Origin: Amylolactobacillus amylophilus DSM 20533 = JCM 1125 | GTDB lineage: Bacteria; Bacillota; Bacilli; Lactobacillales; Lactobacillaceae | Direction: 5' to 3' | Length of the DNA: 64,000 bases | Assembly (NCBI RefSeq): GCF_001936335.1 | Contig: NZ_CP018888.1 | Coordinates: 496,001-560,000, forward strand | In this document: piece by piece, positions 8,876 to 48,880 of the stretch | How positions within the stretch are numbered: position 1 is the first letter of the stretch | How the letters are laid out: every line of letters starts with the position of its first letter | Notes under the pieces: model-generated | Told to the model about the DNA's origin: nothing | Seen by the model: the letters and a program-made list of their open reading frames with translations, nothing else | The model's database searches: none | Translations under genes and position numbers: made by a program

Positions 8876-10104
<1,229 letters not shown>

Positions 10105-36126: not shown

Positions 36127-37392
36127 TTATTCCTCCACCGTCACAAGTGTATATTTCTTCTTGCCCTTACGAACAATTACGAACTTTCCGTCAAATGCGG
36201 CGCTTGGATCCACGATAAATTCTAAGTCAGTTTGTCTCTCACCGTTCAGATAGATTGCCCCATTCTGGACATCTTCTCTGGCCTGTCTCCTTGACGGCTC
36301 AATTTTGGTTACATCGACCAAGAACTCAACAATATTAACTGGTTCGTGCGTCATTGTGGCACTTGGCATGTTCTTAAAGCCCTGTTCAATCTCAGCTGAA
36401 GTAAGATTCTTCAGCTCACCCGTGAAGAGCGCATGTGTGATGTGCTTCGCCTGTTGCAGTGCCTCTTCACCGTGGACAAAACGAGTAACTTCTTCAGCCA
36501 GTTTAATCTGGGCAGCACGCTGCTCAGGCGCTGTCTTCACCTGCTCCTCGAGGGCATCAATTTCTTCATGACTGAGGAAGGTAAAGTACTTCAGGTATTT
36601 GATTACATCGCGGTCGTCTTGATTAATCCAAAATTGGTAAAATTCGTACGGCGTGGTTTTCTCCGGGTCAAGCCAAACAGCACCGCCAGCGGTCTTACCA
36701 AACTTCGTACCATCGGACTTCAACATCAACGGAATAGTGAGACCGTAAGCCTCTTGCTCAGCGCCGCCCAGCTTATGAATCAAGTCTGTTCCCGCGGTAA
36801 TATTGCCCCATTGATCTGCTCCACCAATCTGAAGTTGGACACCATAATTCTTATTCAACTCATAGAAATCAATCGACTGGAGGATTTGATACGTGAATTC
36901 AGTGTAGGAAATACCCACTTCCAACCGGCTGGCCACAACCTCCTTATTCAGCATGGTTTTCAGATTGAATAATTTACCATAATCACGCAAGAATTCTAGT
37001 AAGGAAATCTGGGACAACCATTCGTAGTTGTTCACTATTGTGAAATTCTCTGTGCCGAAAAGTTGCTCCATCATCTTGGTTAGAGCGACCTCGTTATGAT
37101 GTACTTGCTCCATCGACTGGAGCACCCGCTCGGAGTTTTTGCCGGAAGGATCACCAATGGAGCCTGTCCCACCACCGATAACGATAACCGGGTGATGCCC
37201 GGCCTCTTGGAATCTTTTAAGAATCATGAATGGGATCAAGTGACCAATGTGCAAGGAATCTCCCGTGGGATCGACGCCACAGTAGAGCGAAATTTCCTTT
37301 CGTGCCACCAACTTACGGAGCCCCTCCTCGTCGGTCTGCTGATTGATTGCTCCACGCCATTCTAAATCGCTGATAATATCAAATTTTGCCAT
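36127..37392 (-). CDS. tyrS: Tyrosyl-tRNA synthetase
   Basis: A 421-residue class I synthetase. HIGH motif HIGHL near 48-52 in DPTGDSLHIGHLIPFM, KFGKT near 229 (KMSKS counterpart), QIGGADQWGNI for tyrosine/tRNA binding, and a C-terminal S4 RNA-binding domain (about 355-415, VNIVEFLVDVTKIEPSRRQAREDVQNGAIYLNG). Transcription is governed by a T-box leader with a UAC specifier. Together with the Tyr-leader-peptide attenuator at 48734, the window holds two different tyrosine-sensing devices. Single gene. Confidence 0.97.
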   Translation of the reverse strand: MAKFDIISDLEWRGAINQQTDEEGLRKLVARKEISLYCGVDPTGDSLHIGHLIPFMILKRFQEAGHHPVIVIGGGTGSIGDPSGKNSERVLQSMEQVHHNEVALTKMMEQLFGTENFTIVNNYEWLSQISLLEFLRDYGKLFNLKTMLNKEVVASRLEVGISYTEFTYQILQSIDFYELNKNYGVQLQIGGADQWGNITAGTDLIHKLGGAEQEAYGLTIPLMLKSDGTKFGKTAGGAVWLDPEKTTPYEFYQFWINQDDRDVIKYLKYFTFLSHEEIDALEEQVKTAPEQRAAQIKLAEEVTRFVHGEEALQQAKHITHALFTGELKNLTSAEIEQGFKNMPSATMTHEPVNIVEFLVDVTKIEPSRRQAREDVQNGAIYLNGERQTDLEFIVDPSAAFDGKFVIVRKGKKKYTLVTVEE

Positions 37393-37406: not shown

Positions 37407-37615
37407 AAAAAATCCCTAGTAGCAAAAAACTACTAGGGACGAATTAATATCTAAGTCGTGGTACCACCCAAATTCGGAGCAAAGCTCCCTCTACATTGTT
37501 ATCGAGGTTTCCCCCGTCGAGAAATAATCGTATTTCGCTGACACAATCTGCCTAGTTCCCACTAACCACTAGTTCTCTGACCACTGAATTATGCCGCTAC
37601 TCAATTGTAACTAAA
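37407..37615 (-). promoter_or_regulatory. T-box riboswitch (Tyr) of tyrS
   Basis: Minus strand: T-box bulge region GGGTGGTACCACGAC, then terminator TCCCTAGTAG…CTACTAGGGA (37439-37413) with a T-run that ends just before the tyrS ribosome site. Stem I contains GAAATACGA near 37535, giving TAC as the Tyr specifier. Uncharged tRNA-Tyr would switch the terminator to the antiterminator. Confidence 0.94.
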
Positions 37616-47488: not shown

Positions 47489-48481
47489 CTATTTTAGCAT
47501 ATCTTCCGTAATTCCGAATAACTTCATTCGTTTCGTGCTGGTCATCAGCTCTGTTTTCGCAGGGGCCTCAACTGGCAGCTGATCAATCTTCTTACCCTTT
47601 AGAATCTTCACGGCCATCTTAGCGGTCTGCTTACCTAATTCCTTGTAGCTAATTCCCCGGGTTGCCACACCAGCGTATTTAATCATCGTTGCATCGGCGT
47701 TAATCACTGGTGTCTTGACCTTCTCGGATACCTTACCGATGGTCGGCATCGCTGCAGCGGCAATATTATCTGTTGGGATGTAGATTGCATCAACTTGATG
47801 GGCAAGTGCCGTCACGGCCTGTTCTACATCATTCGTAGTAGCTGCAGTCTTCTCAACCGCAGTCAATCCCAATTTCTTCAATTCCTTCCTCGCAATCTTA
47901 ATCTGGAAGACTGAATTAGGCTCACCGGCGTTGTAGAACAGTCCCACTTTCTTCGCCTTCGGGAAAATCTGGTGCAAGAAGTCAATCTGACCCTGAACAT
48001 CAACCATATCGGTGACCCCGGTGGCATTCATATCTGGCTTCTTTGGGGTATTTACTAACCCGGCAGATTTGGGGTCAGTGATTGCGGTGAACAACATTGG
48101 CGTATCTGGATCAACCTTTTGCAGCGTTTGTGCTGCTGGAGTGGCGATGGCGAGGTTTAAATCATTCTTATCCTTCTTCAATCGCTCACTCATCGAACGT
48201 AGATTACTCTGATCTCCTTGGGCATTTAAAAAGTCGATTTTGACCTTATCACCTGAGTAACCAGCTTCCTTTAATCCCGCCTCGAACCCCTCACGCGCAT
48301 CATTCAATGCCGATTGGTCCAGCAGCTGCAGGATCCCAATTTTGACGGTATCCTTGTCCGCTGACTTCTGCTCGTTACTGCAAGCCGTCAATCCCACCAG
48401 CACTCCCGCAAGGGCAGCTCCCGCAATTAATTTCTTCATATGTTTCTTGATACCGCGCTTTTTATTCGTCGTATTCATCAT
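47489..48481 (-). CDS. ABC transporter substrate-binding lipoprotein, TrpX-like
   Basis: A 330-residue lipoprotein. The signal peptide ends in the lipobox GLTAC (Cys about residue 34). The mature part is a periplasmic-binding-protein fold of the COG2984 (TrpX) group: VKIGILQLLDQSALNDAREGFEAGLKEAGY, TPMLFTAITDPKSAGLV and VDAIYIPTDNIAAAAMPTI. Streptococcal relatives are described as tryptophan importers. Here the leader encodes a Tyr-rich peptide, so tyrosine or another aromatic amino acid is a plausible ligand. First structural gene of the operon, behind two tandem terminators. GGAGGAAGAG precedes the start. Confidence 0.9.
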   Translation of the reverse strand: MMNTTNKKRGIKKHMKKLIAGAALAGVLVGLTACSNEQKSADKDTVKIGILQLLDQSALNDAREGFEAGLKEAGYSGDKVKIDFLNAQGDQSNLRSMSERLKKDKNDLNLAIATPAAQTLQKVDPDTPMLFTAITDPKSAGLVNTPKKPDMNATGVTDMVDVQGQIDFLHQIFPKAKKVGLFYNAGEPNSVFQIKIARKELKKLGLTAVEKTAATTNDVEQAVTALAHQVDAIYIPTDNIAAAAMPTIGKVSEKVKTPVINADATMIKYAGVATRGISYKELGKQTAKMAVKILKGKKIDQLPVEAPAKTELMTSTKRMKLFGITEDMLK

Positions 48482-48541
48482 TACTCTTCCTCCAAATTTG
48501 TCTATTTCACTAATTTTTTAACCAGTTTAGCCAAATAAAAA

Positions 48542-48572
48542 CCAGTCATGGGATAATAATCCATGTGACTGG
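48542..48572 (-). terminator. Attenuator terminator T2 of the TrpXYZ-type operon
   Basis: Minus strand: segment F (48572-48559, CCAGTCACATGGAT) pairs with segment G (48552-48542, CCCATGACTGG) with a 2-base bulge, and TTTTTATTT follows. Segment F is also complementary over nine bases to segment E of T1, so forming E:F would remove this terminator. Confidence 0.85.
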
Positions 48573-48611
48573 CCAGAAAATATCTTTTTTTATTTTGATA
48601 CAAAACTACCT

Positions 48612-48649
48612 AAAAAAAGACCACATGGATAAATCTCTCATCCATGTGG
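48612..48649 (-). terminator. Attenuator terminator T1 of the TrpXYZ-type operon
   Basis: Minus strand: segment D CCACATGGAT (48649-48640) pairs perfectly with segment E ATCCATGTGG (48630-48621), and TCTTTTTTT follows. The D core CATGGATG is also complementary over eight bases to segment C (48688-48681), which would form an antiterminator. Confidence 0.92.
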
Positions 48650-48680
48650 CTGTTATTTGCACTTTGAAAAGTACGCCTAT

Positions 48681-48734
48681 CATGGATGCAATTCGCTCTC
48701 CGCGCTTGCATCCGTTGATACTAGACGCAACCGC
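48681..48734 (-). promoter_or_regulatory. Alternative-pairing region (segments A, B, C) of the attenuator
   Basis: Minus strand, in order: A (48734-48724, GCGGTTGCGTC), B (48713-48702, GGATGCAAGCGC) and C (48691-48681, TTGCATCCATG). A:B can form ten pairs with one G-G mismatch and one G-U. B:C can form eight perfect pairs (GGATGCAA/TTGCATCC). C:D forms eight pairs (CATCCATG/CATGGATG). A begins at the last base of the leader stop codon, so a ribosome paused at that stop would cover it. Confidence 0.8.
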
Positions 48735-48793
48735 TATCCGTAATAGTCGTAATAATAGGCTTGATTTAATTGTCGATTAGTAAGTTTATCCAT
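48734..48793 (-). CDS. Tyrosine-rich leader peptide (19 aa)
   Basis: MDKLTNRQLNQAYYYDYYG, ending at TAG. AGGAG (48805-48801) lies seven bases before the ATG. Five Tyr codons stand within six (48757-48740), just before the alternative-pairing region and two terminators. This is the layout of a translational attenuation leader: slow decoding of UAU/UAC when charged tRNA-Tyr is low would place the ribosome upstream of segment A. Too short for usual gene finders. The product is probably non-functional as a protein. Confidence 0.85.
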   Translation of the reverse strand: MDKLTNRQLNQAYYYDYYG

Positions 48794-48851
48794 GACTCTT
48801 CTCCTATTGTTACCAGAACTGTGTCGCCACTTTAGATAGCTGGTTTTTTAA

Positions 48852-48880
48852 AGCATACTATCATTTATTTCTCACGTCAA
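48852..48880 (-). promoter_or_regulatory. Promoter of the TrpXYZ-type operon
   Basis: TTGACG (48880-48875), 17-base spacer, TATGCT (48857-48852). The expected start near 48845 gives a leader of about 365 bases before the lipoprotein gene. Confidence 0.8.

Follow-up and report, generated by a model that had tools for sequence, protein, structure and literature searches.

Immediately upstream of a three-gene ABC importer operon, Amylolactobacillus amylophilus DSM 20533 = JCM 1125 very probably carries a ribosome-mediated transcription attenuator, and the importer placed under its control would be a probable tyrosine transporter. The element occupies positions 48542-48880 on the minus strand of the window—the whole stretch of DNA analysed here, 64,000 nt long and corresponding to positions 496,001-560,000 of contig NZ_CP018888.1 (assembly GCF_001936335.1)—and reading of the sequence confirmed this placement. 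Comparison of related loci supports the leader ORF, its codons, both sets of alternative pairings, an additional helix formed with the tyrosine codons (Z:Z') and the link to the downstream gene. Judged by sequence, the element appears to be a genuine attenuator, a comparatively well supported reading; its general type is familiar, but its layout is uncommon and its family wider than expected.

Architecture of the leader region

The features of the locus are compiled in Table 1. A preliminary description of this DNA had listed a promoter, a leader ORF encoding YYYDYY with a good ribosome site, and seven segments, A to G, that pair either as A:B, C:D and E:F or, alternatively, as B:C, D:E and F:G; all were located at the coordinates given there, and the pair counts proved correct. 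The presence of the promoter among the three promoter-like sites found (2.5 expected) is not evidence by itself. The list of terminator-like sites holds a single entry against 0.4 expected, and includes T1 but not T2. The fold of positions 48525-48850 has a z-score of -5.8, with none of 100 dinucleotide shuffles being as stable. The first of the importer genes begins 60 nt after T2, and a DNA search found the leader once in its own 1.61 Mb genome. The preliminary description overlooked a hairpin inside E:F, formed between the U-tract of T1 and a downstream A-tract; a CCGG-centred U-rich/A-rich palindrome occupies the same place in 16/17 other leaders (exception L002).

Table 1. Features of the attenuator locus and the importer operon, in window coordinates
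Feature	Position	Strand	Basis
Promoter, TTGACG-17-TATGCT	48852..48880	-	Consensus match only
Ribosome-binding site (SD) AGGAG, 7 nt upstream of the leader start codon	48801..48805	-	Reading
Leader peptide ORF, MDKLTNRQLNQAYYYDYYG then stop, 19 codons, five Tyr codons	48734..48793	-	Equivalent in 18/18 distinct leaders
Segment Z, Tyr3-Asp-Tyr4 codons, TACGACTAT; eight pairs with Z', one A.G mismatch	48743..48751	-	Swap test and covariation
Segment A, overlaps the stop codon, pairs with B	48724..48734	-	Reading and covariation
Segment B, pairs with A or C	48702..48713	-	Reading and covariation
Segment C (TTGCATCCATG), pairs with B or D	48681..48691	-	Reading and covariation
Segment Z' (ATAGGCGTA); partner is Z or, within the C:D hairpin, the bases immediately preceding D	48672..48680	-	
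Segment D, pairs with C (antiterminator) or E (terminator T1)	48639..48649	-	Reading and covariation
Terminator T1, D:E stem and U-tract	48612..48650	-	Reading and list of terminator-like sites
Segment E, pairs with D (T1) or F	48621..48630	-	Reading and covariation
U-tract of T1	48612-48618	-	Reading
T1 U-tract/downstream A-tract hairpin inside E:F	48583..48620	-	48620-48611 pairs with 48592-48583
Segment F, pairs with E or G	48559..48572	-	Reading and covariation
Terminator T2, F:G stem and T-run (run from 48541)	48537..48572	-	Reading; conserved with covariation
Segment G, pairs with F	48542..48551	-	Reading and covariation
Substrate-binding lipoprotein gene, PF04392, TrpX-like; pocket Asp/Tyr	47489..48481	-	
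ABC permease gene, PF02653	46541..47452	-	
ABC ATPase gene, PF00005	45737..46540	-	

Conservation and covariation in orthologous leaders

Scanning genome contigs with the substrate-binding protein of the window yielded 80 loci. The 17 closest orthologous loci (L002-L018; 63-81% identical, from Lacticaseibacillus, Lapidilactobacillus or Lactobacillus sp.) were aligned with the window using MAFFT, giving alignment A1 of 18 distinct leaders; L082 was left out because its leader is identical to that of L002. A Tyr-rich leader precedes the binding-protein gene in all 17 loci, ending mostly in AYYYGYYG or YFG. The leader of L015 shows the variant YDYSYYG, and the last Tyr is replaced by Phe in four of the 18 leaders (L002, L008, L013 and L018, with the end YFG). 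In 18/18 distinct leaders, a ribosome site can be read ahead of an ORF that carries repeated cognate codons.

Covariation was evaluated with structures drawn on row L004 of A1, a choice that favours them somewhat. The readthrough set (A:B, C:D and E:F) was paired in 88.6% of cells, with 7/30 pairs changed on both sides—a number reached by one of 500 shuffles; none of these reached the covariation score, and 133 reached the number of pair types. For the termination set (B:C, D:E and F:G, together with Z:Z'), 93.3% of cells were paired and 15/43 pairs had changed on both sides, figures that compare with 0/500 shuffles for both-side changes and for the covariation score and with 6/500 for pair types. 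When the partners were slid by 1-3 columns as a control, pairing fell to only 31.5-41.7% of cells. Helix by helix, on a hand-corrected copy of the alignment, A:B, B:C, E:F and F:G each beat swapped sequences in at least 499/500 trials and C:D was almost invariant; the same swap test gave no covariation of D:E beyond its conservation, 471/500 shuffles being as good. An intrinsic terminator and an antiterminator exclusive with it are both conserved. The preliminary description had proposed examining orthologous leaders for covariation and a conserved Tyr run, and the alignment supports it on both counts: the two pairing sets exceed the shuffles and the run is present in 18/18 leaders. No leader was seen that kept the terminators and had lost the Tyr run or segments A to C, as all 18 distinct leaders keep both. 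Named homologues at a greater distance (Companilactobacillus, Lentilactobacillus, Pediococcus and Weissella; ~40% identical) numbered 14; a Tyr leader was found in none of them, and 13 carry a Phe leader of the form FAFSFFFR or FGFSFFFR.

The tyrosine codons as a pairing arm

A further pairing, likewise absent from the preliminary description, is Z:Z', by which the Tyr codons themselves are predicted to act as a pairing arm. Z comprises codons 3-5 of the aromatic run and its partner Z' lies directly after C; in the window, TACG.CTAT faces ATAG.CGTA. On A1, this helix was paired in 91.1% of cells, with 2/10 pairs changed on both sides. The complementarity recurs across classes with wholly different codons, e.g., CTTTAGC with GCTAAAG and ACTATTGG with CCAATAGT. 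A column search on the model-fitted alignment A3 returned no helix at the threshold used—probably owing to differing registers between classes—and a duplex swap test was therefore used instead, which left out the 26/103 distinct leaders lacking the C-motif pattern. The duplex energy of own pairs averaged -13.1 kcal/mol, against -7.5 kcal/mol for swapped partners and -5.1 for a control window shifted by 20 nt. Each leader's own Z:Z' was stronger than its own swapped mean in 77/77 cases and beat single swapped partners in 4624/5060 comparisons, and it ranked first among all partners, alone or jointly, in 19/77 only. Uninterrupted runs of at least seven pairs occurred in 68/77 own Z:Z' duplexes versus 36% of the swapped pairs.

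In the 62/77 leaders with at least 7 of 8 C:D pairs, Z' has a mean unpaired probability of 0.32 inside that hairpin and so is mostly engaged there, such that Z and the antiterminator compete for Z'. We infer that Z:Z' may favour termination when no ribosome occupies the codons, and that a stalled ribosome would remove it. This contribution to termination was visible only weakly in nested folds and not at all for the window; in the fold with no ribosome, Z:Z' averaged only 0.19 across leaders and was 0.00 in the window.

Folding of the switch and proposed mechanism

The preliminary description had proposed folding the leader in both states, and the outcome depends on the length of RNA considered. 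Full-leader equilibrium folds do not switch: both terminators were favoured, with or without A masked, in 17/18 leaders (L017 was mixed). Since equilibrium folds favour termination whatever the position of the ribosome, the switch must be kinetic. A staged fold of RNA ending at D does switch: in the window, a free A gives A:B (1.00) and C:D (0.83), and covering A gives B:C instead. For RNA of this length with A free, C:D reached at least 0.5 in 15/18 leaders, and masking A lowered it in 17/18 (exception L010); L013, L015 and L018 were weak switchers. Mean C:D was 0.65 with a ribosome stalled at Tyr1, 0.63 at Tyr3, 0.23 at the stop codon and 0.37 with no ribosome. The codons of the window are placed so that a stalled ribosome alters the predicted fold, with 3/18 leaders weak and 1/18 unresponsive to masking. 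In the window, the stall logic put forward earlier holds insofar as a free A leads to A:B and C:D and a covered A to B:C; for an untranslated leader, in which A is free as well, it would predict readthrough, and Z:Z' may provide a route to termination there.

The most likely mechanism, judged by comparison of leaders, would be stalling at the Tyr codons leading to readthrough; its ribosome positions, kinetic order, response to tyrosine and use of Z:Z' are what we infer. RNA polymerase would transcribe the leader while a ribosome translates MDKLTNRQLNQAYYYDYYG. When charged Tyr-tRNA is short, the ribosome would stall at the first Tyr codons, covering Z and leaving A free, and A:B, C (with Z'):D and E:F could then form—so that neither T1 nor T2 arises and the importer is transcribed. 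With plentiful Tyr-tRNA, the ribosome would reach the stop codon and cover A, allowing B:C, D:E (T1) and F:G (T2) to form, with T2 offering a second chance to stop polymerases that pass T1. Whether E is free would decide between E:F and F:G, so that both terminators may obey one decision. In the absence of a ribosome, Z:Z' would compete with the antiterminator and termination would be favoured.

The trp, his and phe operons of enterobacteria are governed by ribosome-mediated attenuators whose leader peptides are rich in the cognate codon, and there, as in this model, the position of the ribosome picks the terminator or the antiterminator. However, the segment parity of the element is inverted, in that A:B after the stop codon would bring about readthrough instead of termination. 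The element also differs in having two terminators joined by an E:F relay, and in that the sensed codons would double as a pairing arm (Z).

Distribution and targets of the leader class

A covariance model (R1) was built from the 18 leaders, and its matches were counted at E <=0.01 per genome—the E-values being rough and calculated per genome, with ~4 chance matches expected per 400 genomes. R1 matched 116/397 Lactobacillaceae genomes (21/40 genera) and 203/395 Lactobacillales genomes (55/81 genera). In 80 loci fetched for this model, it produced 88 matches, 86 of them with a recognised leader; among 106 leaders, two (L167 and L180) had no recognised leader ORF, and L180 is probably a false match. 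Leaders of the class are of Tyr, Phe, Trp or mixed type and stand before genes of aromatic transport and biosynthesis. Judged by sequence pattern, the genes downstream of the R1 matches encode 61 TrpX-like substrate-binding proteins (60 by pattern and L116 by reading), 12 MFS transporters, six transketolases, three AroE proteins and three APC permeases, with single cases of an aminotransferase and a PTS EIIC_2 protein; the one remaining match is the leaderless L180. In other Lactobacillales families, aroE, aroC, prephenate dehydratase and trpB lie behind such leaders. Family models were run on representatives of these genes: transketolase, aroE, aroC and trpB passed a curated cut-off; prephenate dehydratase (pheA) was the best match for its representative but scored 188 against a cut-off of 219.

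Several individual loci deserve mention. One of the two MFS proteins run (L157, 1574-3013, minus strand; leader YYFGLVYFR) carries a C-terminal chorismate mutase type II domain, and the PTS EIIC_2 membrane protein (L176, 1901-2935, minus strand), which follows the aromatic leader YYYFYFFRKGL, is possibly an unrecognised aromatic transporter. A second copy of the element lies in the same genome outside the window (L113, 281-435; C1:381580-381734), with the Phe leader LNTNFFFDFFG preceding a paralogous binding protein whose pocket is Ala/Tyr. In many leaders of the Tyr, Phe and Trp types, the dipeptide LN, often as QLN, precedes the aromatic codons despite synonymous codon changes.

Leader codons and the substrate pocket of the importer

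According to the available text of PMC6816091, structures of CD0873 (Tyr), VC_1101 (Phe) and SP1069 (Trp) indicate that two residues decide the substrate, with Glu263 holding the Tyr hydroxyl and Gln taking the place of Tyr279 for Trp. The window protein has Asp and Tyr at these two places and its best match among solved chains is CD0873, at 218 bits versus 188 for SP1069; against the TrpX equivalog NF041285 it scored 311 bits, below the curated cut-off of 390. The pocket residues of this TrpX-like importer fit tyrosine better than tryptophan, and the regulated gene would, by homology, belong to the sensed amino acid.

The association extends across the class. In a comparison of 76 proteins, comprising the binding proteins found by pattern for 58/88 R1 matches and those of the 18 orthologous loci, an acidic residue at the Tyr-hydroxyl site followed 22/28 Tyr leaders (many of them close relatives, and four of them ending in YFG) and 0/48 others. 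All four leaders ending in YFG preceded an acidic pocket, and the other six of the 28 precede a binding protein with Thr or Ser at this place. With strict classes, the acidic pocket followed 18/24 Tyr-only, 4/14 Phe+Tyr, 0/21 Phe-only and 0/17 Trp-only leaders; the Trp-only leaders preceded proteins with a Trp pocket (x/Gln) in 17/17 cases.

Variation of the relay between classes

The relay was compared in 68 parsed leaders, 9/77 having been dropped because their two hairpins could not be parsed; T2 of the window was misparsed here, which makes its own E:F energy in this comparison meaningless. The U-tract of T1 is kept in 13/15 Tyr leaders, 6/7 mixed leaders with Trp, 8/9 Trp leaders and 10/13 others, as compared with 2/10 of the YFSYF class and 0/14 of the Phe class (FAFSFFF). 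An E:F helix of -7 kcal/mol or better is available to 13/15 Tyr, 12/14 Phe and 7/7 mixed leaders, and to 7/13 others, 5/10 of the YFSYF class—where E:F was no better than with swapped partners—and 1/9 Trp leaders. As the Phe class lacks the T1 U-tract and retains E:F, D:E seems to serve there as a pure relay, with F:G as the only terminator; the Trp class, mostly without E:F, seems to use T1 alone.

We lean with modest confidence towards a single ancestral Lactobacillales attenuator in which the sensed codons constitute arm Z and one position of the ribosome sets mutually exclusive helices over one or two terminators. It would have been re-targeted repeatedly among Tyr, Phe and Trp through joint changes of codons, Z' and the pocket residues of the transporter, and would be partly hidden in Rfam as sRNA_2410 and the trpB motif; in the Phe class, the relay alone would carry the signal to the only terminator.

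Relation to Rfam families and to known systems

At gathering cut-offs, Rfam yielded no family for the element, either in the window or at 12 homologous loci. Two entries, RF02863 ('sRNA_2410') and RF04312 ('trpB motif'), nonetheless resemble branches of a single class of leader-peptide attenuators for aromatic amino acids. RF02863 hit 214/395 Lactobacillales genomes (98 over the cut-off) and 0/14 control genomes. Of 17 RF02863 places entered by hand, 14 were entered with an R1 partner, and these overlap the R1 matches by 92-143 bases, so that the two models agree in location and architecture. All 39 loci of the order fetched from RF02863 or R1 places carry an aromatic leader (33 by a pattern that was filtered on Z:Z' energy and hence is no test of Z:Z', six by a looser pattern), with TrpX-like substrate-binding proteins, aroE, aroC and prephenate dehydratase among the downstream genes. 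The family differs in being filed as an sRNA and in leaving the window element itself unmatched: RF02863 gave no match to the window at E <=10 and none in its own genome (gathering cut-off 61 bits), while the relative L125 does match at 61.5 bits. In the available text of PMC5593968, sRNA_2410 of Enterococcus faecium is described as a 195 nt form by RNA-seq and as two transcripts by Northern blot, and two transcripts would fit two terminators. At the level of the bacterial class, RF02863 matched 26/299 genomes, five of which lie outside the order (G727, G838, G865, G874 and G884, three from family f48; E <=0.001, none over the cut-off), possibly through transfer or an older origin.

RF04312 hit 159/295 genomes (52 over the cut-off) and 1/14 controls (Lactococcus lactis, below the cut-off). 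Its B:C hairpin, GGC, D:E and U-tract align with the window, at 26.8 bits and E 0.1, under the gathering cut-off of 59. All eight RF04312 loci fetched carry Trp-codon leaders (e.g., TWQNWQR and LNHSWQSR), five before a TrpX-like substrate-binding protein and one before trpB; this family would thus represent a Trp branch, as opposed to the Tyr leader of the window. Its original description was not found in the literature searched.

Aromatic regulation in Gram-positives was reportedly treated by Panina and colleagues in 2003. The preliminary description had called leader-peptide attenuation of this sort unusual in Firmicutes, a view that needs dividing. Neither the aromatic leader class nor the relay had an earlier description in the literature searched, which mostly did not extend to subscription papers. 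Attenuators with His-codon leaders are, however, on record for Firmicutes (PMC2965389, PMC9413887). The accessible parts of these two sources present leader peptides in place of T-boxes, as here, but for histidine genes and in other lineages, and make no mention of a relay or of codon-arm pairing. The uORFC-13-1 motif, a Phe-codon uORF before a terminator and aroF, is comparable by description only; the excerpt available assigns its 24 sequences to Acholeplasma and environmental samples (PMC8632094).

Alternative explanations

Attenuation by codon-dependent stalling has to be weighed against an arrest peptide, a reading that we consider improbable. In that case, the conserved nascent peptide QLNxxYYYGYYG would pause the ribosome at the stop codon when free tyrosine binds and the same RNA switch would terminate, so that the signal would be free tyrosine, not tRNA charging. 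The TnaC arrest peptide responds in this way to tryptophan. Conservation at the peptide level argues for such a device: 15/18 leaders retain LN ahead of their aromatic run, with Leu encoded as CTT, TTG, TTA, CTG and CTA, the motif recurs in many Phe and Trp leaders, and the last Tyr is Phe in 4/18, so not every Tyr codon is needed. Part of this conservation is nevertheless explained at the RNA level by Z:Z', and the aromatic codons shift to Phe or Trp along with the substrate pocket, as codon sensing predicts.

It is more doubtful still that the transcripts are trans-acting small RNAs and that the downstream gene escapes termination control, as the name sRNA_2410 implies and as its detection in Enterococcus faecium by RNA-seq and Northern blot could suggest (PMC5593968, as far as its available text goes). 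Two short transcripts would also be the products of two terminators, the loci examined carry a leader ORF and precede aromatic genes, and the Tyr class retains both of the pairing sets that exclude each other. Least likely of all, with only a very slight chance of being correct, is a T-box or metabolite riboswitch in place of a leader-peptide device. In its favour, T-boxes probably serve tyrS in the window (under the Rfam cut-off) and the available text of PMC9382623 places trpX of Streptococcus suis under a T-box. The locus itself, however, gave no T-box (RF00230) match even at E <=10 on 401 bases, and in A1 the conserved sequence belongs to the ORF and to the switch, no conserved aptamer being apparent apart from these.

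The T-box attributed earlier to tyrS in the window corresponds to a T-box-like leader (37432-37611, minus strand) just upstream of the probable tyrS (36127-37392), albeit at 60 bits, below the Rfam cut-off of 93. A similar leader (9927-10099, minus strand; also 60 bits against 93) lies just upstream of the probable trpS (8876-9892), both gene names having been assigned by reading. The same genome thus seems to control its synthetases through T-boxes and the importer through a leader peptide.

Implications

If this interpretation of the leader as a ribosome-mediated attenuator is true, lactic acid bacteria would widely use leader peptides to respond to aromatic amino acids where T-boxes are expected, and the Rfam 'sRNA' of Enterococcus faecium would be a by-product of attenuation. 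The substrates of many TrpX-like importers would become predictable from a short peptide, and the class would provide a natural example of an RNA relay with several stages that vary from branch to branch.
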